From Puniceicoccus vermicola (GTDB lineage: Bacteria > Verrucomicrobiota > Verrucomicrobiia > Opitutales > Puniceicoccaceae), in contig NZ_JACHVA010000143.1 of the NCBI RefSeq assembly GCF_014230055.1, positions 1 to 64,000 on the forward strand: a DNA stretch of 64,000 bases, written 5' to 3'. Positions 533 through 60,910 of the stretch are shown here, one piece after another; position 1 is the stretch's first letter; the number at the start of each line of letters is the position of its first letter. Position numbers and translations under genes: made by a program. Below the pieces are notes generated by a model. It was given only the letters and a program-made list of their open reading frames with translations, was not told the DNA's origin and ran no database searches.

Positions 533-634
533 TTCTAGGTAATTACTCCGGTGTTCATATATCCGACACAACGGCTTGGTAACCACAGAGTATAATTTGT
601 TGTCAAAGATAATAAGAGTAGATTCTTTAACTGG

Positions 635-1786
635 ATGCCCAAGAAAAAAACGGCTAAGAATTCTGTGGAGTTTCCAGAAGAGCTGGATTTTCAAATCCAG
701 AGCAACGAGGTAGCCTACCTAAGCATCACTCAGAAAATACGTGATCTCATCTTATCCAGAAGACTATTACCGGGAACGCGCCTTCCTACATTGCCACATT
801 TAGCCGAACACTGGGGAACCAACTACTATACGGTGCAGACGGCGCTGACACCACTGGTAAATGAAGGCTTACTAATTCGTCGACAGCGATCGGGTACATT
901 TGTTGCTCAGGATACACCGCAGATGCGGTCGATCGGCTTTTACTTTGGCGCACATTTCTGGACCGTAAACTCCGCTTCCTTTTATCAGGGATTTTATCTA
1001 GCTGCTCGTGAGTTTTTTGAGGTTAAGGGCATTCAAGTTCACCTATTTATAGATACAAGAAAGCCCGAGCAGCAGACAGAGCCTTGGAAGCCCCTGATAG
1101 ACGCAATCAAGGCGTGTAGTGTAAATGCCGTAATTGGGTCATTATTAAATCCAACTAACGTGAGTTGGTTGGTAAACCTTCGCGCCCCCAAGGTCCTAAT
1201 GACAGGAGCAGTTGGAGCAGGACCATACCGCCTAGCCTTCGATAATCATTTCCTAGAAAAGAGTTTCCGGCGCTTGCATAAGCGCGGATGCAAACGTGTA
1301 GGTCTTATTTGTAGCTACGGCTTTCCTGAGTTTGATGAGGTTGAGCGTCTTGCTCGTAAATTTGAGTTGGCCATAAAACCTACTTGGGTAAAAAGATTCG
1401 AAGGCGGTTCCCACGACTTCGAAGAAGTCGGATACCTGGCATTTGATGCGATATGGAGCCAGTCGGAGCGGCCGGATGGAATCGTGATCCACCCTGATAG
1501 TATCGGCAAGGGCGTTATCATGTCGATTTTGAAGCATCAAGTGAAAATTCCAGAAGACGTAAACCTAGTCATGCATAGCAACGACAAGGTCTATTTCCAC
1601 TGTCCACTTCCCATAGACTGGGCCGTTGTTAGCGTTGGAAGACTATTGGAGGAAAGCTGGGCTCATCTAAAGAAGCAACTCAAAGGGGAAGTCGTTGATG
1701 TAGTCGATGTGCCAATCAGCTTCACCCCCAGAACAATCAAATCCCCCCCAGTGACCCGAACAAGGCGTAATCTGAAGGCGACTTGA
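635..1786 (+). CDS. GntR-type transcriptional regulator with LacI-like sensor domain
   Basis: This is a 383-aa one-component regulator. Residues about 25-92 form a GntR winged helix-turn-helix (ITQKIRDLILSRRLLPGTRL, then LAEHWGTNYYTVQTALTPL and a wing ending SGTFVAQ). Residues about 97-365 resemble the periplasmic-binding/LacI effector domain, with RLHKRGCKRVGLICS and the PDGIVIHPDSIG and IPEDVNLVMHSND blocks, so a small sugar is the likely effector. Such GntR-LacI hybrids are common in Verrucomicrobiota and Lentisphaerae near carbohydrate genes. A TATAAT box at 591-596 is a candidate -10, but no good -35 or Shine-Dalgarno sequence is visible. It sits beside the propeller/CBM9 gene block and is the best local candidate for binding the shared AT-rich elements at 8361, 12545 and 12657. 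That link is inferred from proximity only. Confidence 0.85.
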   Translation: MPKKKTAKNSVEFPEELDFQIQSNEVAYLSITQKIRDLILSRRLLPGTRLPTLPHLAEHWGTNYYTVQTALTPLVNEGLLIRRQRSGTFVAQDTPQMRSIGFYFGAHFWTVNSASFYQGFYLAAREFFEVKGIQVHLFIDTRKPEQQTEPWKPLIDAIKACSVNAVIGSLLNPTNVSWLVNLRAPKVLMTGAVGAGPYRLAFDNHFLEKSFRRLHKRGCKRVGLICSYGFPEFDEVERLARKFELAIKPTWVKRFEGGSHDFEEVGYLAFDAIWSQSERPDGIVIHPDSIGKGVIMSILKHQVKIPEDVNLVMHSNDKVYFHCPLPIDWAVVSVGRLLEESWAHLKKQLKGEVVDVVDVPISFTPRTIKSPPVTRTRRNLKAT

Positions 1787-1858
1787 CTCCCTAGCCTGAG
1801 TCACTGCCAGAGTAAACTGGGCGGACTCGAACAGTCTGAGTTAATTTGAAGCATATCT

Positions 1859-3616
1859 TCAATCCTCTGCCATACGATGAACTTGCAGCTTAACCAGCCG
1901 CTGGTTTCCACTGTCCATGACCACTGCTCGCCCCCCACTAGCAGCGATACGTCGAGGCTCACTCAGATGACCGATCATGGGATCCCCGGAGAAAACGCCT
2001 AATTTCGAGAGATTGCCATCGGGCAAAACTTCCAAGAGCACGATACGCTGATTCACCGGATCTGAAACCCATAAATTCTGACCATCTGAGGCAATATATA
2101 TCCCCGCCCCAAAGCAATCCCCACCACTTCCAAGCCAGCGGTCACTTCGACTGGTCTCATAAAAAACATCTCCCTCACGCTTTAACCCGATCAACTCGTC
2201 ACCATCGGCCGCAAACAGGGAACCATCCGATGTCACTGCCAAGCTCGTAATGGAGTGTGCTGCTATTTTTAACTGGAGTCGAAAAGGTCTCGGAGCTGAA
2301 CGAAGCCCTCCAATATTATTAATGGGCAAAAGAGCCCCGAGTCCCTTCGCGTCCACGACAGCGACCGTTTCCTCACCGGACTGCTCCAGCAAAGCAGCCC
2401 CCGTTACATGGCTGGGAAGACTATATCTAGACACCCCGGCGTCGAAGCGTTCGCGATCAAAGTCTACCGGTCCTAAAAGAAGAATCGGCGCATTACGTCG
2501 ATAACTCAAGCCTGACATCGCATCACTGGAATTGAAGACGAGTTGCCAACCATCAGCCTCCGTTGTGTATGTGGTATTACGTAGAGTGTGAGCTGGCCCG
2601 TCACTCCAATCCCAGTATCCAGTGTTCCACCAAACACGCCCTTGGCGGTCCACTCCCAACCCAGATTCCCGGTAAATGGCTCCGATTCGGCGTGTTGCTG
2701 TAAAGAAACGCTTCTGCGGATCCCAAAGCAACAAATGAATCACGCCGATATCACTTGTCACAGCGTATCGCGCACCGCCCAAATGAACAAGACCGCTGGG
2801 CATATCGACTTCACCGTCTTCATGCAAACGTCCGAGAAAAGCTCCAGACTTACCACCATAAACCACTCCCGGGTGTGGTGTCCCATCTGCCTGAAGGCGG
2901 TGAATGCTCATGTGCCAGGTATAACTGTAAACACTCCCGTTTACCCACTGCGTAAACCGCGTGGGCATACCTTCAATCATAGTCAGCCCCCCGTCAGGAT
3001 CAACCCGCAGTTGGCCATCAACAAGAAGTCCACCATCCGGCAACAGTAAAATCGTATCCCCACGAACCACTTGACCATCATATTTTAAAGGAAGCGGTAG
3101 ATAGTGCGTCACGTCACCGGTATGAGCATCCCAAACAAACAAATCCCGATCGTCTCCGATCAAAGCGAGTTTTCTGCCCACAGGCGAAAGGGATATAGCT
3201 TCAACCTTGATATCCAAAGCGATACGTTCAGGAGCGGCCCCAGATGCAGAAGCGATCGGCAACATCCAGAGCTGCTGATTCGCAAGAATGATCACGCGAT
3301 CATCGACCACAGTGATCGATTTGGGGCCGGTTCCCATCTCTTTCGGCAGATGAAAAGTCGCCATCATACGCCCATCCTGAGCATAGCGATTAATCGTAAA
3401 CGGCCCGGCGAAATTCCAAAGGAAGCCTTCCCCATCCAGTCCCAGTCCATACAAACTATTTTGGGGCCGATCTTCGCCCACGCCGAATCGAACCTGCGTT
3501 TGCCCGGAATGCCCCGAGTTACCCAAAATGCCGTGACTGCTGATGGTAACAGAAGGAAGAGCAAGTGCACTATGACAAGCGATCAGTACTGCTACGATTT
3601 GGCGGAGGGAAAACAT
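1859..3616 (-). CDS. Secreted NHL-type beta-propeller protein
   Basis: A 585-aa protein with a probable signal peptide (MFSLRQIVAVLIACHSALA) followed by repeated four-strand blade motifs, for example LYGLGLDGEGFLWNF, GVDRQGRVWWNTG, SLAVTSDGSLFAADG, YIASDGQNLWVSDPVNQRIV and RIAASGGRAVVMDSGNQRLV. The last two are typical NHL blades. No catalytic motif was recognised; such propellers usually bind ligands or proteins, though some are lyases. It starts 19 bp after the stop of the upstream 1231-aa gene and probably shares its transcript. It resembles the propeller part of the two giant neighbours but lacks their FlgD-like Ig and CBM9-like domains. It is probably periplasmic or surface-located; the function is unknown. 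Confidence 0.75.
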   Translation of the reverse strand: MFSLRQIVAVLIACHSALALPSVTISSHGILGNSGHSGQTQVRFGVGEDRPQNSLYGLGLDGEGFLWNFAGPFTINRYAQDGRMMATFHLPKEMGTGPKSITVVDDRVIILANQQLWMLPIASASGAAPERIALDIKVEAISLSPVGRKLALIGDDRDLFVWDAHTGDVTHYLPLPLKYDGQVVRGDTILLLPDGGLLVDGQLRVDPDGGLTMIEGMPTRFTQWVNGSVYSYTWHMSIHRLQADGTPHPGVVYGGKSGAFLGRLHEDGEVDMPSGLVHLGGARYAVTSDIGVIHLLLWDPQKRFFTATRRIGAIYRESGLGVDRQGRVWWNTGYWDWSDGPAHTLRNTTYTTEADGWQLVFNSSDAMSGLSYRRNAPILLLGPVDFDRERFDAGVSRYSLPSHVTGAALLEQSGEETVAVVDAKGLGALLPINNIGGLRSAPRPFRLQLKIAAHSITSLAVTSDGSLFAADGDELIGLKREGDVFYETSRSDRWLGSGGDCFGAGIYIASDGQNLWVSDPVNQRIVLLEVLPDGNLSKLGVFSGDPMIGHLSEPRRIAASGGRAVVMDSGNQRLVKLQVHRMAED

Positions 3617-48012: not shown

Positions 48013-48317
48013 CCAGTCGGCCCATACGCAGCACCCCCCTCCACTTCCCATGGAAGCACCTCCCGTCCGAGCAAGAGAGTACTCTTGAGGGTAGACCTGA
48101 AGAATCCATACGACCTCGATCGAGAAAAATCCGCTATTTTAGACCGGAATGTGTTGCTCCCTTTTCCGTTCGATCTTGATTCTCAGCTGCCCCAAGTTCT
48201 AACTTGCCAACGAGCGAACTGGCTTTCTAAAATGGGAGCAAGATCGACTCAAATTCATCCTGCACCCTCCCTTCCTAGCCTAATTTAGCTGAACGAGCTC
48301 TGATTCGATCCTCTCCC
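48013..48317. other. Intergenic region before the MoxR-type operon
   Basis: No gene is supported. It must contain the promoter for the gene at 48318, but no convincing -35/-10 pair was seen. Composition is mixed. Confidence 0.35.
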
Positions 48318-50894
48318 ATGGTAACTATTATTCGCGTAGTCCTTCTCGCTTTGATCAGTTTACCACCACTGGCTTATTCGAATTCCGGGGCGCTGATCGT
48401 CGTGGGGCTTTCCGGTGACAATCGAATCGCTGAACAGCATAAAGAATTGGCCGGACGCACGGCGGAAGCTCTCAAAGAACGCGGTATTCCCGAAGATCAG
48501 ATACGCGTGCTCATCACCGGGGTGACGAGGCAGAGTATTCTGGATGCACTGGATGAACAGCTCAGCCACACGGTGCCCGGCGACGAATTTTGGCTCGTTT
48601 TACTGGGGCATGGCGGATTGGGCCGCGACAATGAACCACTATTTCAAGTTCGGGGCCCACGCTTGAAAGCCACTGATCTACGAGAGGCACTCCTTAAATA
48701 TCCTAGTCTGCGCCCTGTCGTCCTGCTCGGTTTTGATCGAAGTGGTGGCTTTTTGCCCCATTTCGAGGCTCTTCCCGCGTGGGGAATCACAGCGACCTCC
48801 AGCGCCGCGGAACGCAATTTACCTCGTTTCACTGCCTATCTAGTCGAAGCATTGGAGGATTCGCCGCAGGCGGATATCCCCTTGTTGACGGCTCGCGCGG
48901 CCGAACGCACTCAGGACTATTATGAGAGCCATCGTCTCGCCCGCACCGAAGAAAGCCGTCTTTACGATCCGCAGTCGGGAGAGTTCTTGCAGCCACCCTT
49001 CGGCGTTTCAGATTTGCAGGCCGAAGCCGGGCAGACGACTCCGGCCATAGAAGCGTTTTCCGAATTATTGGCCTCGGAAATCGAAATCCCGAAATCCAAT
49101 AAGGAGGAGCGGTTTACCGAACTGCCGGCGAGTGAAGAAACACGAGCGTTGATCGCCGAGGCGAAAAAGGCTCCCAACCCTGCCCATTTTTCCGGCCTGA
49201 TATTGCGTCGAGAAATCGAGCTTACCGTCACACCGAGCTATCAAGCGACCCGGCGTGAGCGCTTACGGGTCTACCTCGCCAATGAGGACTCCTTTGATCA
49301 GTGGGCGAACTACCAATTACCAATGAATCCACCGGTGCAGATGTCTCGCATCGAGTCAGCTCGGTTAATTCTGCCAGATGGCCGTTCGCGTGTGATGGGG
49401 AGATTCCCCGAAACCGACGATAATTCCAACCAATCCTCGATCAACCAGCTCTATTTTCCCGGAGTGGAACCAGGCTCTCTGGTTGAAGTCGAATTCGTAA
49501 CGGATTCAAGGGCTCGACAGGATATCCCCGCCTATTACACCGAGATTCCCCTCCAACTCGGTCTCCCCATCCTATCCAGCGAAATCACCCTCAACCTACC
49601 CGCGGACGAAGCATTCCACTTTCACCTGGCCAATCTCGACACCGCACCGACGAAAATCGAAGACGAGCAAAGCAGGAAATACACTTGGCAAATGAACCCT
49701 CTACCCGCCTACGAACCGCTCCCCTACGATCCTGACCCGAGGGAGTGGGCCGGATGGCTGGGCGTCTCTTCCATCCCCTCCTGGGAGCAGTTTACAGACT
49801 GGTTCTCCCGCATCTCGGAAGGAGCCTTTGAGGCGAGCCCTGAGGTGGTTGCGCTTGCCGAATCCATCGCCGCGGATCAACCCGACCAAGAAGACCGCAT
49901 ACGGGCCGCCTACGAATATGTGTCCGCAATGCGTTACACCGCCATTGAAATCGGCGTTCAGGCCTTTCGGCCACGCACTCCCGGCCAAGTGCTGGCGCAG
50001 GGATACGGCGACTGCAAAGATAAGGCCAACTTGCTCACGGCTCTCCTTCGAGAGATGGACATCCCGGCACAAATCGCCCTGATCAATCGCTTTTCATTCA
50101 CGGAACCTGAATTCCCGGGCTGGCAGTTCAATCATGCGATTGCCTACGTTGAGCCGACCGAGAAGCACCCCGGCGGGCTCTGGCTCGACGCTACTGAAAG
50201 AACGACCTCTTACGGAGAACTCGCCCCGGGCAATGCTGGCCGCCAAGCGCTGATCATCGATCAATCCGGCGAGGGAAGATTCCGTCTCGCTCAACCGGAC
50301 TCCCGTATAAAGAAGCTGGAAACTTGGACATTGACCCCAGACGAAGGCCGTTGGTCGGCGATCTACAACCGCGTCCTCGACAACGCTCTCCAGCGTCAGA
50401 TCAGCGGAAAATCTCCCCAACAGCGAAATTACATTCTACGGGCGTGGATCAAGGCTTTAAATCCTTCCAGCCAATTTGAGATTCAGACCGTCTCCATCCT
50501 CGAAGAAGACCATACCGATCCGGCGATCATTCGTGCCCAAGTCTCCCTCGCCGACGGAACTCTTCCCCAGCCCAGTATTCCTTGGCGGGACGCTTTTCTC
50601 TCTCCTGTCCGCGACCGCCCGCTCCAGCTTGGTGAAGCACCCACTCAGTATACGCAAGTGATCACGATGCCTGCGCCCCCGGCAGAGTCCCTGCCGGACG
50701 ATTTTCGAAATACAGTAGGTTCCGACTATATTGATTGCCGCATCATTTGGAGCCGCTCAAATCAGGACGAGATCCTTCGCTCCGCCGTCATTGAAATCCG
50801 CGAACCCGTCATTCCTTCGGAAGCGTATCCAGCGGTTCGGAAGGCTTTCAGGGAATGGTGGCAGCAGCTCAATTATGATTTCGCACTCATCTGA
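48318..50894 (+). CDS. Exported pseudo-caspase/DUF3857/transglutaminase-like protein
   Basis: An 858-aa protein with a signal peptide (VVLLALISLPPLAYSNSGAL). Residues about 25-205 look like a caspase-hemoglobinase (C13-like) fold: EFWLVLLGHGGLGR gives the catalytic-type His98, and LRPVVLLGFDRSGGFLPH sits where D-x-C-x-S-G is expected, but has Asp140-Arg-Ser and no Cys, so this domain looks inactive. A DUF3857-like beta domain spans about 290-500, then a transglutaminase-like domain with Cys566 in QGYGDCKDKANLL, His606 in FNHAIAYV and Asp624 in LWLDATE, an intact triad. It is likely periplasmic. It precedes the MoxR gene by 72 bp on the same strand and may belong to that operon. Confidence 0.78.
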   Translation: MVTIIRVVLLALISLPPLAYSNSGALIVVGLSGDNRIAEQHKELAGRTAEALKERGIPEDQIRVLITGVTRQSILDALDEQLSHTVPGDEFWLVLLGHGGLGRDNEPLFQVRGPRLKATDLREALLKYPSLRPVVLLGFDRSGGFLPHFEALPAWGITATSSAAERNLPRFTAYLVEALEDSPQADIPLLTARAAERTQDYYESHRLARTEESRLYDPQSGEFLQPPFGVSDLQAEAGQTTPAIEAFSELLASEIEIPKSNKEERFTELPASEETRALIAEAKKAPNPAHFSGLILRREIELTVTPSYQATRRERLRVYLANEDSFDQWANYQLPMNPPVQMSRIESARLILPDGRSRVMGRFPETDDNSNQSSINQLYFPGVEPGSLVEVEFVTDSRARQDIPAYYTEIPLQLGLPILSSEITLNLPADEAFHFHLANLDTAPTKIEDEQSRKYTWQMNPLPAYEPLPYDPDPREWAGWLGVSSIPSWEQFTDWFSRISEGAFEASPEVVALAESIAADQPDQEDRIRAAYEYVSAMRYTAIEIGVQAFRPRTPGQVLAQGYGDCKDKANLLTALLREMDIPAQIALINRFSFTEPEFPGWQFNHAIAYVEPTEKHPGGLWLDATERTTSYGELAPGNAGRQALIIDQSGEGRFRLAQPDSRIKKLETWTLTPDEGRWSAIYNRVLDNALQRQISGKSPQQRNYILRAWIKALNPSSQFEIQTVSILEEDHTDPAIIRAQVSLADGTLPQPSIPWRDAFLSPVRDRPLQLGEAPTQYTQVITMPAPPAESLPDDFRNTVGSDYIDCRIIWSRSNQDEILRSAVIEIREPVIPSEAYPAVRKAFREWWQQLNYDFALI

Positions 50895-50966: not shown

Positions 50967-51998
50967 ATGTCACAATCGCAATTATCCGAACCTGCATCCG
51001 AAACGGACGCCTCCCTCAATGAACGCGACATAGAGTTACTGCGAAACGCACCCGAGCTTTACCATCAAATCTGCAACGAACTCGGCAAGCGTATCATCGG
51101 TCAGCGCGATGCGATCCGGCATCTTTTTATTGCTCTGATGGCACGCGGGCACTGCCTCATGATTGGTGTCCCGGGCCTCGCGAAAACTCTTCTCGTGCAA
51201 AGCTTGGCCGATATCCTCGACCTCGACTTTCAGCGCATTCAATTTACGCCCGACCTCATGCCGGGTGACATTACGGGCTCCGAAATTCTCGAAGAGGGAG
51301 ACGATGGCAAGCGCTACTTCCGTTTCGCCAAGGGTCCCCTGTTTATCCAACTTCTGTTGGCCGACGAGATCAACCGCACGCCCCCCAAAACTCAGGCTGC
51401 GCTCCTTGAGGCGATGCAGGAAAAACATATCACCGTAGCTGGACACACTCATCAGCTTCAGGCCCCGTTCTTCGTTCTCGCCACCCAAAACCCTGTTGAA
51501 CAAGAAGGCACTTACACTCTACCGGAAGCCCAACTCGATCGCTTCATGTTCAACCTCACGATCGATTATCCCTCCCATGAAGAGGAAGTCGAGATCCTCC
51601 TCTCGACCACGGTGGATCGGAACGCCACCCTCAGCAAGCTGCTCGATGCTGATCGCATCCTCGCTCTCCAACACGCAGTGCGCCAAATTCCGGTTCCGCG
51701 TTCGGTAGCTGACTACGTAGTCCACCTCGTGCAAGCCACGCGCCCGGATCATCCGGACTCGCCCGACTTCATTCGCCGCTACTTACAATGGGGTGCTGGC
51801 CCGCGAGCTTCGCAAAACCTCGCATTGGCTGGAAAAGTTATCGCCATGCTCGATGGCCGATTCAATGTCGCCAAGGAAGACATTATCGAGGCGGCTCCTC
51901 TCGTTTTGCGCCACCGCCTATTGACCAACTTCCATGCTGAAGCCGAGGGCCGAAAGGTGAACGACTTGATCGCAGACCTCATCCGCCATATCAATTGA
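50967..51998 (+). CDS. moxR: MoxR-family AAA+ ATPase
   Basis: A 343-aa cytoplasmic ATPase. ELGKRIIGQRDAIRHLFIAL is the usual N-terminal start; Walker A is GVPGLAKTLLV, Walker B LLLADEINRTPPKTQ, sensor 1 ATQNPVEQEGTY, and the arginine-finger/lid region follows (PEAQLDRFMFNLTIDYPS). MoxR proteins act with VWA-domain partners as chaperone or metal-insertion machines; DUF58 and VWA genes directly follow. The next gene starts in its stop codon (TGATG), indicating coupling. Confidence 0.93.
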   Translation: MSQSQLSEPASETDASLNERDIELLRNAPELYHQICNELGKRIIGQRDAIRHLFIALMARGHCLMIGVPGLAKTLLVQSLADILDLDFQRIQFTPDLMPGDITGSEILEEGDDGKRYFRFAKGPLFIQLLLADEINRTPPKTQAALLEAMQEKHITVAGHTHQLQAPFFVLATQNPVEQEGTYTLPEAQLDRFMFNLTIDYPSHEEEVEILLSTTVDRNATLSKLLDADRILALQHAVRQIPVPRSVADYVVHLVQATRPDHPDSPDFIRRYLQWGAGPRASQNLALAGKVIAMLDGRFNVAKEDIIEAAPLVLRHRLLTNFHAEAEGRKVNDLIADLIRHIN

Positions 51999-52990
51999 TG
52001 GAGTCGGTATTTCAGTCGAGATCCCCTGCCGAGCCGCGGTCGAGCGAAGTCCTTCGGCACTCGCCCGGCAAAACGTCCAAGCACGCGCCACAACGATCCC
52101 GACTGCCCAAAGTCAACCCCATCGACATTGGATTACTCGGGCAATTGCCAACCCTTGCCCTGCGCGCCCGGTATCTGGTCGAAGGTTTTATCAGTGGCAA
52201 ACATCGCAGCCCTCTCACCGGACACAGCGTTGATTTTTCCGAATATCGCGCCTACCAGACCGGCGACGAATTTCGCGCCATAGACTGGCGTCTCTACGGC
52301 CGCACCAACCGCTTGTCCATAAAGGTCTACGAAGATGAAACACAGCTGAATGCTTGCCTGGTGCTCGATTGCAGCGCCTCTCTGGCCTACCAGAGTCGCG
52401 AGCCTCTCATGACCAAACTCGACTATGCGCGCACCTGCCTAGCCGCACTCTCCTTACTCATTAAACGCCAGGGAGATGCTAGCGGACTCGCGATTATATC
52501 GGATGACATTGATCATTACCTACCGGCCTCGGCCCGACCCAGTCGATTCTATGAAACCTGCCAGAGACTCGACGCCATCGAGGCCAGCCCTGATTCTGCA
52601 TTTGCCCGCAATCTCGGGCGACTCAGCGAGCTACTGAAACAGCGGTCCCTAGTCGTCATCGCCAGTGACTTTTACGAAGAGCCCGAACATCTCCTCCGAG
52701 TTCTAAACCGCCTCCGCTTTGATGGTCATGACGTGATCGGCCTCCAAGTACTCGACCCCGCCGAGATCGAATTCGATTTGGAGGAACCCGGTCAGTTTAT
52801 GGATCTGGAGCAGGGGCAGATGATCGCACTTTCCCCGGAAGAAATTCGCGAAAGCTATCTCCAGCATTTTCGGGCCTTTCAAGGGGAACTGCGTCGCGAA
52901 TTCGTCGACGCCGGCTTCGAGCTGATTACACTACGCACCGACCAGTCGCCAATGGAGGCGCTCTCGCTTTACCTGGCCCGTCGCCTATAG
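51998..52990 (+). CDS. DUF58 domain protein (MoxR partner)
   Basis: A 330-aa protein whose ATG overlaps the MoxR stop. RARYLVEGFISGKHRSPLTG and SEYRAYQTGDEFRAIDWRLY contain the DUF58 signature (Y..GD..R.IDW). The VWA-like half starts LVLDCSASLAYQ, giving an intact D-x-S-x-S MIDAS. TKLDYARTCLAALSLLIKRQ and LVVIASDFYEEPEHLLRVL follow. No membrane segments are seen, so it is probably cytoplasmic and bound to MoxR. The N-terminal about 45 residues are basic and poorly conserved. Confidence 0.9.
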   Translation: MESVFQSRSPAEPRSSEVLRHSPGKTSKHAPQRSRLPKVNPIDIGLLGQLPTLALRARYLVEGFISGKHRSPLTGHSVDFSEYRAYQTGDEFRAIDWRLYGRTNRLSIKVYEDETQLNACLVLDCSASLAYQSREPLMTKLDYARTCLAALSLLIKRQGDASGLAIISDDIDHYLPASARPSRFYETCQRLDAIEASPDSAFARNLGRLSELLKQRSLVVIASDFYEEPEHLLRVLNRLRFDGHDVIGLQVLDPAEIEFDLEEPGQFMDLEQGQMIALSPEEIRESYLQHFRAFQGELRREFVDAGFELITLRTDQSPMEALSLYLARRL

Positions 52991-52992
52991 CC

Positions 52993-54927
52993 GTGATCGC
53001 CCCACTATTTATACTAGCCGGACTGGCGGCGTGCGGCGTCCCCATCGCATTGCACTTCCTGCGCCCTAAACCGCGGCGGATCATCCCCTTTCCCACTTTG
53101 CGATTCCTCCGCCCTGCGGCACAGCGGGAAAGTCGCCGCCACAAAGTCCTTCGTTGGCTGGTACTCGCATTGCGATGTCTCGCACTGCTGCTACTCGGCC
53201 TCGCCTTCGCTCGACCCCTCTTCAACCAGACTCACCCCGGTAGCGGCCAGGCCGTCGTGGTCGTGGTCGACCACTCCTTCAGCATGCAAACGACGGATCG
53301 TCAGCGCGAGTTGACCGAATGGGCACTGAAGCAGGTCGACGACCTGCGGTCCGATGCGAACGCCGGAATTCTGCTCGCACAGGAGCGCCCCCAATGGGCG
53401 GTGCCGTTCGGCTCGCCATTATCCACGGTGAGAGCGGAGCTCAGGAATCAGAAACCCGGATATGAGAACGGCGGATACCGATCCGCGATCCGATTAGCAG
53501 CCGAGCGACTCCGGGAGAGCCCAGCCCGGGAACGACGTCTCGTTTTGCTCGGAGACCACCAAGAGCTCGCCTGGCAGGAAGTTGACTTTGACCAACCTCT
53601 ACCAGCCGGGATCCAGCTTACTCTTCCGCCTACGCCGAAGTCTCCCGTCTCACAAATTGCACTCACAAAGATCGAAGTGCTGGAAAGCAACAAAGACCGG
53701 TCCGCGGTGGTATCGATCATGCCCTACGCAGTTACGGAAGCAGCACACACCGTGACCCTCCGAGTCGACGGCGAGGTCTTCGAGACCCAAACCCTCCAAT
53801 TGATGCCTGGGCAAGCGGCCCGCGTCGCCTTCAACTTGCCAGAGGACAGCGATCCAAATTGGCTGGAGGCCAGTATTGATTCGGACGACTTGCCCGCCGA
53901 CAACTCCATTTACACCGTGCTGCGCAAGCAACAGATCGACCTGCAGCTGACTCCAGCGAATGAGAACGTTGACTACCTGGCGATCGCTATTGATGCCGGA
54001 TCTCGCACCAACCAACGCCCTATGCAAGTAGTCGACTGGCCCGAGGACGAATGGCCGAACGAGAACACGGCTGTTTTGCGCGGCGAATCGGCTTTCCAAG
54101 GAGCTGAATTGGCCAAGCTTGATCGCTTCCTCTCCCGAGGGGGACGAGCGATCATGTTTTACGACGGAGGGACCTCTCAGAAAGAGTGGTTGCGAAGCCA
54201 TGGCATCGATACCGCTCCGGTGGAAACTTCAGCCTCCGGCACAGACCGCCCCCTCAGCTTGCGGGACTGGGATCTCGCGCATCCCTCAATGATACCTTTT
54301 GTCGATAGTGATATCACCCCTCTCCTTCAACTCCGCTTCGAGGAAGGCCAAAGCCTTTCCCCCGAGCAGGTCTGGCCAATCGCACGTTGGCCAGACCGGA
54401 CCGTCGCTTTAGCAGAAGCAAACATCTTGGGCGGCACTGTGGTAATCGCCGGATTTGAGGCCGGGAGTAGCAGCACCCTTGTCCGCAGTGCCTCCTTTCT
54501 TCCTCTGGTTCACGGGTTGGCCAGCTGGTTATCTGGTCAGGAAGAAACAGCGGAAAATCTAAGCACTGGTAGCGTCCTTCAACTTTCATCGGCAGGTCAA
54601 TGGCAAGCTATGGCAGGTCCGGATTCAGGCCACTCCACTACAGTCGGAGGACACATTCAACTGACGACACCGGGGGTTTTCCAATTTCGAGGCGAAAACG
54701 GCGAACGGTTATTCTATGCGGTCAATGTCCCCACACAAGAATCGGATCTCCGCCCTTGGGTGACTACATCCGACTTTGCCCGACTGCAAGACCGCGAGTC
54801 GAGCCCCCAAAATCAAGCACAACTTCTATCCACTTCCGAGTCTTCGACATTCGCGTGGTGGGCACTCGCCTTAGCCATCGTCCTGATCGTCGCCGAAGTT
54901 CGTCTCTCCAACCAAACCGCCCGATGA
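52993..54927 (+). CDS. BatA-domain/VWA membrane protein
   Basis: A 644-aa protein from a GTG start 2 bases after the DUF58 stop. The N-terminal APLFILAGLAACGVPIALHF and LRWLVLALRCLALLLLGLAF are the paired helices of the BatA N-terminal domain (TIGR02226-type), with the RPKPRRIIPFPTLRFL linker. A VWA domain follows, with VVVVVDHSFSMQTTD as intact MIDAS. The middle and C-terminal regions are beta-rich, with a glutamine-amidotransferase-like segment (LDRFLSRGGRAIMFYDGGT), and a final membrane helix (FAWWALALAIVLIVAEVRLS). It is probably anchored at both ends with a periplasmic core. The next gene overlaps it by 4 bp. Confidence 0.87.
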   Translation: MIAPLFILAGLAACGVPIALHFLRPKPRRIIPFPTLRFLRPAAQRESRRHKVLRWLVLALRCLALLLLGLAFARPLFNQTHPGSGQAVVVVVDHSFSMQTTDRQRELTEWALKQVDDLRSDANAGILLAQERPQWAVPFGSPLSTVRAELRNQKPGYENGGYRSAIRLAAERLRESPARERRLVLLGDHQELAWQEVDFDQPLPAGIQLTLPPTPKSPVSQIALTKIEVLESNKDRSAVVSIMPYAVTEAAHTVTLRVDGEVFETQTLQLMPGQAARVAFNLPEDSDPNWLEASIDSDDLPADNSIYTVLRKQQIDLQLTPANENVDYLAIAIDAGSRTNQRPMQVVDWPEDEWPNENTAVLRGESAFQGAELAKLDRFLSRGGRAIMFYDGGTSQKEWLRSHGIDTAPVETSASGTDRPLSLRDWDLAHPSMIPFVDSDITPLLQLRFEEGQSLSPEQVWPIARWPDRTVALAEANILGGTVVIAGFEAGSSSTLVRSASFLPLVHGLASWLSGQEETAENLSTGSVLQLSSAGQWQAMAGPDSGHSTTVGGHIQLTTPGVFQFRGENGERLFYAVNVPTQESDLRPWVTTSDFARLQDRESSPQNQAQLLSTSESSTFAWWALALAIVLIVAEVRLSNQTAR

Positions 54928-57425
54928 ATCCCCTTGAACATTTGCGTACTGCGAGCCTCCAGCGGCGTCTCCGCCTTCCTTTATGGCTTCTCATTACTGG
55001 ACTGGTGTTGGCCTTGGCAGCATTTTTAGTCTCACCGTCGGGTTTTCTCCCGCTCCTGCTTTGGCTGGCTGCAGTGACCGTGAGCCTGTTGGGAGCCTGG
55101 CTCGCCTACACCTGCATCCGCCCCAACGAGAACGAGACAGCACGTCGATTAGACGCACAACTGAATGCCAAAAATCGCTTTGAAGCTGCGGCGGAGCTTT
55201 CCTCTCAGACTTCGCCGATGGCAGTGGCGCAGCGACAAGAAACCCAAAGCCGCTATTCCGACCTCAAAAAGGCTCCTGCTGTGGCTGCATGGGCGATGTT
55301 CGCCCTTGCCTTACTCCTGATCTCCAACCTGGGATTTCTCATTGGCTGGGCGGTCACGATCCCCTCCTTTCAACCCGTGCCCGAAATAGACGAACTGCCT
55401 ACAGCTGCCGTCCCCGAACCCACGGCGAAGATCGAATGGATATCTCCCGAAGCGGAGACATCCGCCACATCGCTGGAGGTGCTCCCCCTTACCGCAAACG
55501 CAACGTCGAGTTCGGGTCTCGAAAACCTGGAACTGGTGGTCGCTGTCAACGGGCAGGAACAAGAGCACTTATCCATTGAAACGAATCTGTCTGAACCTGG
55601 TAGCTCTGAGTTGGAGATCGATGTCTATCTAGATCTGTATGAACTCGGCCCCTACGACATGGTGACTTATTTTCTCAAGGGCCAACGCATCTTTGAGAAA
55701 GAGTTGATGCCGACGGTATCCGATTTACAATTCGTGCAGATTCGGCCCTTTCGCAGTGACGTCGAACGCGTTCAATCAGCAGGTGGCGGCGGACCTTTGG
55801 AAGATGCTTCCAACCTGATGAGAGAACTCAAACTGGCCCAACTAACCCTGTATAAACAAAACTTTCTCCTGGCGCATGCGGATCGTGAAAATGACGTGTG
55901 GCCGGACGAAAACAGGAAGGTTGCCTTGGAACAAGCGAGCCTCGTAGAGAAGACGATCGAAGCGATTGACTTTCTCACCGCAGAAGGTGCCTCCGCGGTA
56001 ATTGTAGACCTACTGTCCCAGTCCAGACCACTTATGGACGAAGCCGCGGAGTCTATTACCGCGAGGAAAAATACTTCGGCCCTCCCACCTCAGGGACAGG
56101 CACTCGGCAAACTCACCGAAATCGAGAAGCATATTCGCAAGCTAATCATCGAGTCGAAAGGCTCAGGCTCGCCCTCGCCTCCTGAGGTGAAAGATCCCTT
56201 CGCGGATTCAGAAAAATACCACCTGCCCCCGCGCGAGGAAACCTCGGCGGGCCAACTGGAGCAGCTCGCTCAAGAGCAAGAGACGCTCATCGAGGAATTC
56301 GATGAGGCAAATTCCAAGGAAGTTGCGGAGAAGCAAGAGGACATTGCTCAAGAATTGGAGAGTATGATCCAAAACTCCGGTATGTCACCCGAGATCAAAG
56401 CAGCTATGCAGACTGGTTCCGATTCCGCGAAAGAAAGTCTGGAACAACTCGAGGCCGGGGATCCAGGCGCAACCCGGGAACCCGCTACACGTGTTTTGAA
56501 TAGTCTAAATGAGGCCATTCAAAAAATGCACATTGAAGCGCAGACGAAAGCCCGGGACCTACTCGCCGAGACCCAACGTGAGCTGAACGATGCGGCACGC
56601 GAGCAATCAAGTTCACCTCAAAACGAACGCGAATCCTCACCTAAAGAATCGTCGCAGAACGAGTCGAATCTGGCGAATCAGAGCGATCCCAGCAAACAGC
56701 GGGCCTCCGACGATTCCGGACGAGGCGAACAGCCAACTTCTTCGGGAGGCGACAATGGGAGCGACACCACTGGCGAAAACAAAAATCTCAGAAGTGCACA
56801 GGCAATTGCTCAAGCCAGAGAAGCTTTGCGTCAAGAAGCTTTGCGGCAGCAGCAATTCGGCTCAGAAGAATTCGCGCTCTTGCTCGCAAAACTGGCTGAA
56901 CAAATGGATACCGGGATTACCAATCTGGACTCCCCCCAAGATCCGTCGGCGATCCTAACCTCGTTGTCCGACGATACGGCTAAAGCGCTTTTCACCATTG
57001 AGGACAGGCGAGAAGCCTTGACGATGACCCGCAATCTCTTGGAACGCTCGGCTGCCAATTTAGACCGATTATCGCAGACAATACCGAGTGCAGAACACCC
57101 TGTGGCAGTGGATGAAGCAATCGGTGATCTTCTCACGGCTGCCCAGATGGCCCGCCTACTACTCCGATCGCCGACAGCTGAGAATGCCTCCGAAACGCTT
57201 TGGCAAGATCTTGGCACTGGAGACCGCGGTGCCCAAGGAGTTAGCTGGGACAACATTAGGCCCCCGGTCGAGTCACTTATCGCAATGCTCAACAAAGGAA
57301 TTTCGGGCATGACGCGTGATTCTATCATCCGGATAGACACCGCAGGCGCCGCGCCCGAGGCCTATCGCGACGCGGTCTCCGCATACTTTGAACGCTTATC
57401 CGAAACCTCAACAGACTCCGAATGA
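54924..57425 (+). CDS. Coiled-coil membrane protein (DUF4175-like)
   Basis: An 833-aa protein starting at the ATG that overlaps the previous TGA; the frame is open further upstream but lies inside the VWA gene. Three membrane segments are near the N-terminus: LWLLITGLVLALAAFLVSPS, LLLWLAAVTVSLLGAWLAYT and WAMFALALLLISNLGFLIGW. A beta-rich region of about 200 residues follows, then an extended acidic, Gln/Ser/Glu-rich coiled coil (LEQLAQEQETLIEEFDEANS, AQAREALRQEALRQQQFGSE). It corresponds to the large DUF4175-like protein found in MoxR operons of alphaproteobacteria and Planctomycetes. It probably scaffolds the complex. The following DUF4159 gene overlaps its stop. Confidence 0.8.
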   Translation: MNPLEHLRTASLQRRLRLPLWLLITGLVLALAAFLVSPSGFLPLLLWLAAVTVSLLGAWLAYTCIRPNENETARRLDAQLNAKNRFEAAAELSSQTSPMAVAQRQETQSRYSDLKKAPAVAAWAMFALALLLISNLGFLIGWAVTIPSFQPVPEIDELPTAAVPEPTAKIEWISPEAETSATSLEVLPLTANATSSSGLENLELVVAVNGQEQEHLSIETNLSEPGSSELEIDVYLDLYELGPYDMVTYFLKGQRIFEKELMPTVSDLQFVQIRPFRSDVERVQSAGGGGPLEDASNLMRELKLAQLTLYKQNFLLAHADRENDVWPDENRKVALEQASLVEKTIEAIDFLTAEGASAVIVDLLSQSRPLMDEAAESITARKNTSALPPQGQALGKLTEIEKHIRKLIIESKGSGSPSPPEVKDPFADSEKYHLPPREETSAGQLEQLAQEQETLIEEFDEANSKEVAEKQEDIAQELESMIQNSGMSPEIKAAMQTGSDSAKESLEQLEAGDPGATREPATRVLNSLNEAIQKMHIEAQTKARDLLAETQRELNDAAREQSSSPQNERESSPKESSQNESNLANQSDPSKQRASDDSGRGEQPTSSGGDNGSDTTGENKNLRSAQAIAQAREALRQEALRQQQFGSEEFALLLAKLAEQMDTGITNLDSPQDPSAILTSLSDDTAKALFTIEDRREALTMTRNLLERSAANLDRLSQTIPSAEHPVAVDEAIGDLLTAAQMARLLLRSPTAENASETLWQDLGTGDRGAQGVSWDNIRPPVESLIAMLNKGISGMTRDSIIRIDTAGAAPEAYRDAVSAYFERLSETSTDSE

Positions 57426-58135
57426 TGCGAACGCTCTTTTTACTTTTCGCTTTTATCTGTCTAACGCCGTCAATGACGACCCTGCAGGCACAGGACACAC
57501 TCGAACCGCGCGCTGGCGAAGTCTCCTGGGCCCGTTTGAAAACAGACTACAGACATTGGAATCGCCACTCTTCAGCAGAACCGACCATCGTAAATTTTAT
57601 TCACGACCATACGAATCTCGATATTGAGTCCACCTGGGTGGCCGCAGACATTGATCATCTCGATCAATTAATCCGCTATCCATTCTTGTATTCGGAGGGC
57701 ATTCACACCGTGACGAAACCCAAGCAACTCGAAAATTTACGGGAATATCTGCTACGGGGAGGATTCATCGTGATGGATTCGTGCATCAATCCCGAAGTCA
57801 CAGAAGACCCCGACGCTTTTGTCGTCGATCAGATCGCGAAGGTGCAGGAAATACTGCCCGGCGCTACCGCAAGAGCGCTTCCCCGGGATCACATTATCTT
57901 CAGGATATTCTTCAAAATCGAAGGCGGGGCACCACACTCCTATATGAACAGCGTTTACGATCCCGAGTGGGAGAAACACGGTTTCTACGCCATCTATTTC
58001 GAGGATGCTCCCGTCGCGCTTGTCAGCGTCAGTGGATTGAAATGTGGATGGGCAGGCCTTCAGACTATGCCGGGGCATGATGTGCTCTGCAGCCAGATGA
58101 TGGTCAACATCTATGTCTGGGCGATGACCCAATAG
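57422..58135 (+). CDS. DUF4159 exported protein
   Basis: A 237-aa protein with a signal peptide (MMRTLFLLFAFICLTPSMTT). The body fits DUF4159: ARLKTDYRHWNRHSSAEPTI, DIDHLDQLIRYPFLYSEGIH, LENLREYLLRGGFIVMDSCI, HIIFRIFFKIEGG and DVLCSQMMVNIYVWAMTQ. This domain has a flavodoxin/glutamine-amidotransferase-like topology and is found almost only in MoxR/VWA operons. No catalytic residue is known. It overlaps the upstream gene (ATGATG) and lies 15 bp before the next, so it is cotranscribed. Confidence 0.9.
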   Translation: MMRTLFLLFAFICLTPSMTTLQAQDTLEPRAGEVSWARLKTDYRHWNRHSSAEPTIVNFIHDHTNLDIESTWVAADIDHLDQLIRYPFLYSEGIHTVTKPKQLENLREYLLRGGFIVMDSCINPEVTEDPDAFVVDQIAKVQEILPGATARALPRDHIIFRIFFKIEGGAPHSYMNSVYDPEWEKHGFYAIYFEDAPVALVSVSGLKCGWAGLQTMPGHDVLCSQMMVNIYVWAMTQ

Positions 58136-58150
58136 AAGAGTCACGCGGAC

Positions 58151-60406
58151 ATGGATACGGTCGAAACATTTACTTGGGAATTTGGAGGTCCTCTGGCGGG
58201 TATACCGGTGCTCCTCGCCTTTTCCCTTCTATGTCTCGCTTTTATCGGCAGCTTGATTGTCGTCTGGTGGTCCTACCGAAACGCCCTCCGCCAGCTTTCG
58301 CTTCAGCGTCGATGGACGCTGTCGACCCTGCGCCTTCTCACGCTCGCAACACTTTTCTTCTGCTTGGCCAATCCAACACGGGTGGATCGGACCTACCTCG
58401 CGGAGAATGAATCGCCGAAAGCAATCCTTCTCATCGATCATTCCGCCAGCATGACCATCGCGGACAACCGCGGACGGACGCGACTTGACGACGCAGTCCG
58501 CACTTGGCGCACCTTCGCGAATCAGGCGATTGACCGCTTTGGCGAGATAATTACTTACCATTTCGACTCCGACCTTCGGAACGCGCCCCGAAGCGAACTC
58601 TATCCCGAACAAATACCCGGTCCAGACGACACCCAGCTGCTCAAAGCGTTGCAATCCATAATGGATACAGAAAAGCCAGAGGCGATCTTCGTGATCACCG
58701 ATGGTCTGGACACCAACGATTCTCAACAGGACGAAGCGTTGAACTCCATTTTCCAGAGCACCGTCCCGATATCATTCATCACCGGAGAGAACCGTATTGC
58801 AGAAGAGAAAATGCTAACCCTCCGCGAATTCGACTCGCCGGAAGAAGTGCTGCGCGACACGGCTTTTCCGGTTCGATGGGTGATTGAAGCACGACTCCAG
58901 AGAAACAGGAGTCTGCCTATCACGCTCCAGGTCGATGATCAAACTGTGATGACCGCGGAGCTGTCTCTAGCGTCCGGCTACAACCTGCTGCCGTTGTCCG
59001 CAACCGTCACAAGCGGGCAACCTGGTGAGCGAGTGCTCACGCTGACGGTCGGGGACGACAGAGAGTCGAAAACCTTCCGCCGGATTGTCTCCGTGGGGAG
59101 TCAGCGGTCGACTCGTGTACTTTATTATCAGGGCACCCCCGACTGGGGTTTCCGCTTCACAAAAGACATCTTTGCCCGTGAGCCGAGCATTGAGTTGACC
59201 TCTGTCTTTAAGCCGACTGATGAGATGACCGTGATCTCCGGACAGGACGAGGTGGATGAACTGCCGGAACAATCGCAGGCTCTAGCTGGTTTCGATGTGG
59301 TATTACTCTCTCAAGTTCCCTCCCGTCAATTGACCCCCGCCCGCCAGAAAGCGCTTCAAGAGTATGTCCGCCAAGGCGGGGGCCTCCTGCTTTTACTATC
59401 CGACGCCGACCAGGCAGAAGCACTCAGGCGATCAACGCTTGAATCGATTCTGCCCGTATTCCTGGAAGATGCTGAGCCGCCTCCGAATGGAGGCGACACA
59501 CTGCGAAATCAAATGCGTCAGCTTCGTCAAACAGGAGGCGGAAAAGCGATCCAGCTGCACCCCTTTTCAATAGTCGAGAGTTCTCGGTATGCTTATATTT
59601 TTGGCAATGAGGATAGGGAGGAACAAGTCATCCCCTGCTTTTTCACGGCAGCCCCAATCTTCCGAGCCAAGGCGGGCGCGGATATTCTCGCCCAAGATCC
59701 CAGTGAGAAGGACTCAGCGGGGCGAAGCGGCATCTTGCTCGCCATCCAACGTTTCGGCACAGGCCATACAGCGGTCCTAGCCACGGATTCCCTCTGGCGT
59801 TGGAAATTGGCCGAGCCCAGCGATTCGAAAGCACCCGAACAATTTTGGCAACAACTGCTGCATACCGTCGCCGGTGCTGGCATGGGCTCCGATGCCTTAC
59901 ATTTCGTGCGACTCCCAGTAGAGGTACCCGTGGGCGAACCGATAAATCTAAAACTGAATGCCGGGCCGGACATGGACGATTCCTTAGAAGTCGTCGCAAC
60001 TAGTCCCGAGCAGGAGGATTTTATACTTACCCCCTTAGAAAAAGATAATCCGGACGTCCGCGAAATTTCTTGGACCCCGAAAACACCCGGCGAGTGGACA
60101 ATTTCCGCAAGCACCGCGGACACGAAAACACGCCAGTTCATCACCGTAGGCCCACCCGCTGTGCCCAAACCGGATCGAGCTCACGAGAACGTTGATTACC
60201 ACTTATTACGGAGCCTCGCATCCGCCACTGGCGGCGACATGCTGGAAATCGGAAGCAAGCCCGGATGGATGAACCGGACAGATGACGGTCCGACGATTCT
60301 GGATGAAAGGCGAATCCCCCTTTGGAGCATCTGGCCGTTATTCTTACTCGCCACTGCATTCTATCTTTTTGAACTAAGCCTGCGGCGCTATTGGAAGTTG
60401 CTGTGA
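58151..60406 (+). CDS. VWA-domain membrane protein with amidotransferase-like region
   Basis: A 751-aa protein. Two N-terminal helices (LAGIPVLLAFSLLCLAFIGS and LSTLRLLTLATLFFCLANPT) precede a VWA domain with AILLIDHSASMTIAD (intact D-x-S-x-S) and IFVITDGLDTND. A beta-rich linker leads to a glutamine-amidotransferase-like region near residues 360-500 (FDVVLLSQVPSRQLTPARQK, EYVRQGGGLLLLLSDADQAE) and a C-terminal helix (LWSIWPLFLLATAFYLFELS). It is the third VWA-type protein of the operon. The architecture resembles the large VWA/GATase proteins of Planctomycetes; it is presumably in the inner membrane. Last gene of the operon. Confidence 0.87.
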   Translation: MDTVETFTWEFGGPLAGIPVLLAFSLLCLAFIGSLIVVWWSYRNALRQLSLQRRWTLSTLRLLTLATLFFCLANPTRVDRTYLAENESPKAILLIDHSASMTIADNRGRTRLDDAVRTWRTFANQAIDRFGEIITYHFDSDLRNAPRSELYPEQIPGPDDTQLLKALQSIMDTEKPEAIFVITDGLDTNDSQQDEALNSIFQSTVPISFITGENRIAEEKMLTLREFDSPEEVLRDTAFPVRWVIEARLQRNRSLPITLQVDDQTVMTAELSLASGYNLLPLSATVTSGQPGERVLTLTVGDDRESKTFRRIVSVGSQRSTRVLYYQGTPDWGFRFTKDIFAREPSIELTSVFKPTDEMTVISGQDEVDELPEQSQALAGFDVVLLSQVPSRQLTPARQKALQEYVRQGGGLLLLLSDADQAEALRRSTLESILPVFLEDAEPPPNGGDTLRNQMRQLRQTGGGKAIQLHPFSIVESSRYAYIFGNEDREEQVIPCFFTAAPIFRAKAGADILAQDPSEKDSAGRSGILLAIQRFGTGHTAVLATDSLWRWKLAEPSDSKAPEQFWQQLLHTVAGAGMGSDALHFVRLPVEVPVGEPINLKLNAGPDMDDSLEVVATSPEQEDFILTPLEKDNPDVREISWTPKTPGEWTISASTADTKTRQFITVGPPAVPKPDRAHENVDYHLLRSLASATGGDMLEIGSKPGWMNRTDDGPTILDERRIPLWSIWPLFLLATAFYLFELSLRRYWKLL

Positions 60407-60910
60407 GCCGACCATATTTTTAAACGGGATGGATACGCCTCTACCCTACCTATGCTACCTAAGTTCACCTCGGAGATTTTCCATAGCCATGATAAAAAAT
60501 AGAAAACGATTGCGGTAGGGATCGACTTCGGTTGGAGGGATCTATTGCCGTTGTGCTTGGGCAAGGCTGAAGCCGTGCCCCACTGGGAGGGCGATGATTC
60601 CTTTCTCGCGCGCCGTCGACTGTGAATCCCGCAGATTGCGTGTGGGATTTTTCGATTTCGGTCTTTGCTTGCCTTCACCTCAACGAAAAATCGCTCTCTT
60701 GCGTTCGCTCCGAGGCTATGAGACGCTATAAGTTTCGCTCTAGGGAGTCCGATTTGAGGATCACGGAAGAAACGTTTGTAAAGATCGCGTCCTTTTTGGG
60801 AGAATCCTTCAAATCCTCGCCGAAACGGCTCTCGCCAATTCGAAATTGGCCCGGTAGGTTTACACTGAGTCTCTCCTTGCGAGAGCGACTACCTCTATCA
60901 AAAAGAACAC
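60407..60910. other. Non-coding region between VWA operon and rnr
   Basis: No gene is supported; the frame at 60622-61041 overlaps rnr and lacks protein character. Short self-complementary fragments are present (GTAGGGATCGACTTCGGTTG, CCCGCAGATTGCGTGTGGGA), the latter a possible hairpin. The rnr promoter should be here, not identified. Confidence 0.35.

Follow-up and report, generated by a model that had tools for sequence, protein, structure and literature searches.

What is a protease-like domain that lacks its catalytic Cys doing in front of a transglutaminase-type domain, in a gene that precedes a MoxR/VWA operon? The question is raised by a locus at 48318–50894 of the window (here the whole 64,000-nucleotide stretch of Puniceicoccus vermicola DNA that was analysed), where an earlier note, made from the sequence, had described a pseudo-caspase fused to a transglutaminase-like domain.

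The fusion protein and the operon behind it

The locus is an open reading frame on the + strand with an ATG start, encoding an 858-aa protein that is laid out as follows:

48318–48380, + strand: signal-peptide-like N-terminus, residues 1–21 (residues 1–19 hydrophobic, Kyte-Doolittle 2.18)
48378–49016, + strand: predicted caspase/legumain-fold domain without catalytic Cys, about residues 21–233 (AlphaFold2, Foldseek, VIA-align, hhalign)
48609–48611, + strand: His98, the former catalytic His position (pairs with the GHG segment of C14 in the profile alignment)
48735–48737, + strand: Asp140, the former catalytic Cys position (pairs with the C14 Cys in the profile alignment)
49017–49106, + strand: linker of low confidence or disorder, about residues 234–263 (pLDDT <50 at 234–263)
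49236–49712, + strand: DUF3857, residues 307–465 (PF12969, E 2.6e-12, 47.6 bits against a cut-off of 24.6)
49851–50207, + strand: transglutaminase-like core, Pfam match at residues 512–588, extended past Asp624 (PF01841, E 8.3e-9, 36.1 bits against a cut-off of 23)

The signal-like N-terminus predicts export of the protein to the periplasm, and hydropathy gives no TM-like segment beyond the N-terminal one. Residues 1–226 match no Pfam family, and the domain itself has no Pfam match at E up to 1, C13 (PF01650) and C14 included; NCBIfam has no name for it, and PDB sequence searches with the domain alone and with the whole protein as queries returned no meaningful match.

The C-terminal half combines a PF01841 match above cut-off with a Cys-His-Asp triad, which together place it in the transglutaminase-like superfamily. 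The earlier note had called this triad (Cys566/His606/Asp624) intact, and it is present in 19 of the 19 proteins compared (the window protein, 17 of 18 fused loci and one further protein, L114); the transglutaminase-type enzyme is, by these residues, apparently intact. For the full-length model the best solved match is 3kd4 (Foldseek E 1.3e-28), the putative protease BDI_1141 of Parabacteroides distasonis, a 505-residue chain that resembles the DUF3857-transglutaminase part (TM 0.73 on target) and presumably matches the portion of the fusion behind the caspase-fold domain. Some transglutaminase-fold domains are peptidases, and crosslinking is therefore only one possible reaction of this one. 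The full-length model has a pTM of 0.65 and a disordered linker, with the relative placement of the two halves uncertain.

Downstream of the fusion gene, as the earlier note had also recognized, lies a MoxR/VWA operon (50967–60406), also on the + strand, whose genes overlap or are separated by short gaps:

48204–48233, + strand: weak promoter-like site upstream of the operon, TTGCCA-18-TAAAAT (10/12 matches; 9 sites in the stretch against 5.3 expected)
50967–51998, + strand: MoxR AAA+ ATPase (PF07726, E 3.8e-62)
51995–52990, + strand: DUF58 protein, cytosolic by hydropathy (PF01882, E 9e-41; no TM-like segment)
52993–54927, + strand: BatA-type membrane-anchored VWA protein (PF07584, E 1.6e-15; PF13519, E 1e-6; TM-like segments at 1–19, 55–73 and 620–638)
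54924–57425, + strand: large conserved membrane protein with no Pfam family above cut-off (three TM-like segments)
57422–58135, + strand: DUF4159 protein with signal-like N-terminus (PF13709, E 1.6e-23; hydrophobic at 5–23)
58151–60406, + strand: second membrane-anchored VWA-like protein (DHSAS motif in the translation; TM-like segments at both ends)
60624–60650, + strand: weak terminator-like hairpin after the last operon gene (10-pair stem; 15 sites found against 14.0 expected)

The MoxR, DUF58 and BatA-like VWA genes stand in order, as in operons of the Bat/cmd type. Similarity of the second VWA-like protein to GATase1_like is weak and below cut-off (PF07090, E 6.1e-5), and the promoter and terminator scans of the window gave results near chance.

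Fold of the N-terminal domain and its lost nucleophile

AlphaFold2 modelled residues 21–236 with a mean pLDDT of 95.2 and a pTM of 0.92 from an alignment of 17 sequences; the structure alignments (A4/A5) comprised the window protein, 15 of the 18 fused loci and L114, with the divergent L079 and L081 and the frame-split L083 omitted. Among solved structures Foldseek placed legumains at the top (4n6o, E 3.1e-9, TM 0.65 on query), with further matches to MALT1, a metacaspase, GPI transamidase and caspases. VIA-align put metacaspase-4 (6w8r; Z 20.1, 192 residues, rmsd 2.5) and legumain (4nol; Z 19.8, 181 residues, rmsd 2.3) in a tie. At the sequence level, hhalign aligned the family profile with that of Peptidase_C14 at a probability of 96.4% (E 1.2e-9; 14 family members against 9 Peptidase_C14 domains from relatives, from 9 of the 11 loci fetched). 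Control profiles from the same operon reached only 0.6% (DUF58) and 0.2% (MoxR) against C14, and the C14 likeness of the domain is therefore not chance. Pfam C13 was matched by 2 of the 14 family members, with a best E of 0.0029; these 14, out of 28 domain sequences, make up the family alignment A1, in which one member also matches EF-hand_5 weakly (E 0.26). We are confident, from the structure models, that the N-terminal domain has the clan CD caspase/legumain fold. A caspase fold had been proposed in the earlier note, and that much holds, but the nearest structures are legumain and metacaspase rather than animal caspases specifically.

The same note had placed His98 in the right context (LLGHGG) and had read the expected Cys position as FDRSGG, and both assignments are borne out: His98 aligns with the GHG segment of C14, and Asp140, within LLGFDRSGG, stands opposite the catalytic Cys. 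The window domain contains no Cys anywhere, which rules out for this protein a Cys hidden elsewhere in the pocket. By its sequence, then, the window domain lacks the pair of His and Cys that an active clan CD peptidase requires. The domain may be a pseudo-orthocaspase: the dyad is missing and the profile relates it to C14, yet it has no Pfam C14 match.

The loss extends to the whole family, as the check in orthologues proposed in the earlier note reveals. In 52 distinct domain sequences, 26 from long fused-type proteins and 26 from short ones, Cys occupies the nucleophile column in none of the 51 relatives having a letter there, and a local pseudogene event was rejected for this reason. The column holds Ser (20), Thr (4) or Ala (2) in the 26 short proteins and Thr (9), Arg (5), Pro (3), Ser (3), Glu (2), Ala, Asp or Asn (1 each) in the long ones; the His column holds His in 25 of 26 short proteins and in 17 of the 25 long ones with a letter there. 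Because the residue at the His98 position is His in 13 of the 19 fused proteins compared and lost in 6, the exact old pocket, read from these sequences, is not kept by every fused protein. A Cys stands one residue before the nucleophile column in L024 and L040, both also without the His, and one residue after it in L042, where the His is kept and a shifted active site is possible from the sequence.

Five matches to the domain profile have no operon gene nearby. Four of them (L213, L218, L220 and L221) carry both His and Cys in the alignments, for example in DACNSGG and CCESGSF, and look by sequence like ordinary caspase relatives; the residues of L221, which fell out of the conservation alignment for length, were counted from its own alignment. 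The remaining match, L214, belongs to a fused protein on a contig of 5.3 kb and has neither His nor Cys. Loss of the Cys thus tracks the operon-linked lineage. Within the operon set Gly97 (50/50), Ser142 (43/50), Asn167 (36/50) and Glu211 (47/47 with a letter) are conserved, the last in a C-terminal segment where unlinked relatives have gaps; the set also includes L073 and L076, whose fetched contigs carry no operon gene, as well as L082, with only DUF4159. Since Gly97, Ser142 and Glu211 stay conserved, the domain is not decaying, and this pattern of residues argues for a working fold without catalysis.

Two further features of the separate copies were seen. Most have Ser at the nucleophile column with the His kept (for example L026, L029, L035 and L047), a possible His-Ser dyad. 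An EF-hand-like DxDxDG..E stretch occurs in some (for example L028 and L016, segment DLDxDGQxSLLE), with a similar stretch in C14 relatives; it is missing from the fused window protein.

Linkage to the operon and distribution in the phylum

We compiled the neighbourhoods of 43 domain copies (42 places from the phylum search other than the window, plus G021). At least one of MoxR, DUF58, BatA, VWA or DUF4159 lies beside the domain in 38 of the 43, and a core gene in 32. In the fused layout MoxR is the next gene in 11 of 14 neighbourhoods. In the other main layout the domain is a separate secreted-type protein, adjoining a VWA gene in 19 of 25 operon-linked copies, with DUF4159 between in 3 more. 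A third layout has a short form (277–305 aa) directly before MoxR without a transglutaminase (L206, L207 and L209). None of the 25 operon-linked separate copies has a transglutaminase match in its fetched stretch, and for 10 of them a lax threshold gave the same result. Because separate copies sit in the same type of operon without the transglutaminase, the domain goes with the operon and not with the enzyme; that it is a transglutaminase accessory only was rejected on the same count.

An 80-locus set gives the same picture: a core operon gene is present in 15 of 18 fused loci (L068–L085) and in 0 of the 62 others (Fisher p 1.2e-13), although this set overlaps the 43 neighbourhoods and the linkage counts are not independent (by their lengths, at least the pairs L048/L070, L051/L074, L052/L082, L054/L077, L062/L084 and L067/L085 seem to share a contig). 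The three fused loci without a core gene are two on truncated contigs and L082 with its lone DUF4159. At L083 (5352–7785) the coding sequence is divided over two open frames, one with the domain and the other with the transglutaminase part, either because the gene is split or through an assembly error. The one domain among the 62 other loci is that of L114, on a 3.7-kb contig titled Poribacteria, where the same domain is fused to a transglutaminase-like protein (602–3517).

By their titles, the 18 fused loci come from Verrucomicrobia, Lentisphaerae, Kiritimatiellota or uncultured bacteria of unstated phylum. The fused domains cluster together in a 58-row tree (support 100/96), except for L114, which sits on a long branch and whose placement is unsure. 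At E ≤1e-6 the domain profile matched 40 of 387 phylum genomes, with 4 of the 43 places being the His/Cys relatives. In Verrucomicrobiota, counting Lentisphaerae and Kiritimatiellota as members, the dead domain thus recurs as a partner of the MoxR-DUF58-BatA operon, fused or separate. The earlier note had considered the arrangement uncommon, and this is only partly right given that recurrence.

Full-length matches were found in 3 of 70 relatives, the window's own genome included, and the domain is absent from two genomes of the same genus (G001 and G002), and so the operon seems, from these searches, to be an accessory one that comes and goes. G002 is also without a DUF4159 match. Despite the absence from G001 and G002, and despite a G+C content of 55.6% in the operon against 52.7% in the window before it, the tree offers no clear donor for a recent gain from another organism.

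Proposed role and comparison with known systems

The fold, the loss of the Cys, the kept triad, the genomic linkage and the occurrence in fused and separate forms were computed directly; export, binding, partner, reaction and envelope role of the fusion are what we infer. A sensor or binding role for the dead domain, suggested in the earlier note, may apply, and we lean, without great assurance, towards placing the fusion, as an exported subunit, in a Bat/cmd-like envelope operon of the MoxR-DUF58-VWA kind, with the dead domain as its binding (docking or recruiting) module. The caspase/legumain-fold domain, incapable as a Cys protease, would serve as a binding module, and in the fused version a flexible linker would tie it to the DUF3857-transglutaminase unit, which holds the sole intact active site. 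If exported, the dead domain of this operon-linked protein would lie in the same compartment as the membrane proteins' VWA parts; it may bind a stretch of peptide in an envelope protein or in the neighbouring periplasmic VWA proteins. Binding would deliver the transglutaminase-type Cys566 enzyme to its substrate, with MoxR and DUF58 working on the same assembly from the cytosol. We favour docking or recruitment because the domain occurs both with and without the transglutaminase. Experiments have placed a BatA-like VWA domain of Borrelia on the periplasmic side, and envelope and morphology changes are recounted for Rhizobium leguminosarum cells in which a related operon is defective (PMC5700661, available in part); an envelope role here would be carried over by analogy from these other phyla.

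Could the domain be a structural leftover or spacer with no function of its own? The variability of His98 in the fused group would suit such a relic, but Gly97, Ser142 and Glu211 are strongly conserved, the model of the fold is of high confidence, and separate copies have been retained as operon genes of their own; we consider such a relic very doubtful. We give equally little credence to a hydrolase activity retained through another nucleophile: the His in 25, Ser in 20 and Thr in 4 of the 26 separate copies at the dyad columns would permit a His-Ser dyad in most of them, but 2 of the 26 have Ala, the fused group ranges over Thr, Arg, Pro, Ser, Glu, Ala, Asp and Asn, and the window protein itself has Asp. 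We know of no natural Ser version of a caspase-fold protease.

Direct fusion through a long flexible linker, with an intact triad beside a dead domain, would also fit a brake, with the dead domain restraining the transglutaminase-type domain of its own molecule until an envelope signal or the VWA/MoxR machinery sets it free. For the inactive caspases of other MoxR-vWA systems, dominant-negative or peptide-binding roles have been proposed (PMC7159879, available in part). The 25 operon-linked separate copies have no transglutaminase in their stretch, however, and braking cannot be the general function; we think it unlikely. A defence role, in which the operon would act against phages or in conflict after the manner of the MoxR-vWA ternary systems and the dead caspase would be its effector, strikes us as quite improbable. 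About 70% of effector-position caspase domains in those systems are inactive (PMC7159879, in its available part), and the window MoxR matches the bpMoxR model (39.4 bits against a cut-off of 27), but PADLOC, which returned no system match, gives MoxR only a marginal AAA match and assigns no family to the other operon proteins (DUF58, BatA, the large membrane protein, DUF4159, the second VWA protein) or to the fusion. Moreover, the fusion looks exported from its N-terminus, the gene set is DUF58-BatA-DUF4159, and DUF58 and BatA do not appear in the main text of PMC7159879.

The reading of the dead domain as an exported binding module can be extended, tentatively and with rather less expectation of being right, to the whole phylum: exported dead caspases could be a standard part of the MoxR-DUF58-VWA machinery, in which the old substrate cleft would now be a peptide-binding groove that hands envelope proteins to the fused transglutaminase in one branch and to periplasmic VWA proteins in the other. 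If true, the dead caspases in MoxR-vWA conflict systems would thereby have a counterpart in the periplasm. Little is known of how the widespread MoxR-DUF58-VWA operons work, and a conserved dead-protease subunit, fused and separate, gives a concrete handle on them; such a subunit predicts binding rather than cutting, with a caspase fold recruiting clients in the periplasm.

With legumain/Peptidase C13 and metacaspase/Peptidase C14 of clan CD the domain shares the fold over its whole length, the GHG His loop and the SG after the nucleophile; it differs in that the window domain has no catalytic Cys, the family sometimes has no His, and there is an extra conserved C-terminal segment with Glu211. 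Like the bacterial pseudo-orthocaspases (PMC6426788 and PMC7889975, both available in part) it looks like a caspase p20 homologue without the His-Cys dyad, but the window-family domain looks exported by sequence and is tied to one operon. According to the available part of a 2019 survey (PMC6426788), Alphaproteobacteria and Cyanobacteria together account for 90% of pseudo-orthocaspases, and its main text contains neither the word "Verrucomicrobia" nor "transglutaminase"; a large, apparently unnamed lineage would thus join the short list of bacterial pseudo-caspases from outside the groups mostly covered there. MoxR-vWA ternary (VMAP) systems, in the available part of PMC7159879, likewise combine inactive caspase domains with MoxR and vWA proteins, and the peptide binding or dominant-negative action that its authors propose is a precedent for our binding idea, though from another system with different core genes; here these are DUF58, BatA, DUF4159 and an exported-looking transglutaminase fusion. 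The Bacteroides Bat and Rhizobium cmd operons share MoxR, DUF58 and membrane VWA proteins with the present one, but the available part of PMC5700661 mentions no caspase-fold or DUF3857-transglutaminase subunit in them. In the literature on MoxR, DUF58, DUF3857, DUF4159 and caspase, mostly open-access, we found no description of an exported, transglutaminase-fused, phylum-wide dead-caspase family. Dead bacterial caspases are already published (PMC6426788; SyOC, PMC7889975; each available in part), as are dead caspases accompanying MoxR-vWA; the exported, transglutaminase-fused family that spans the phylum is apparently new.
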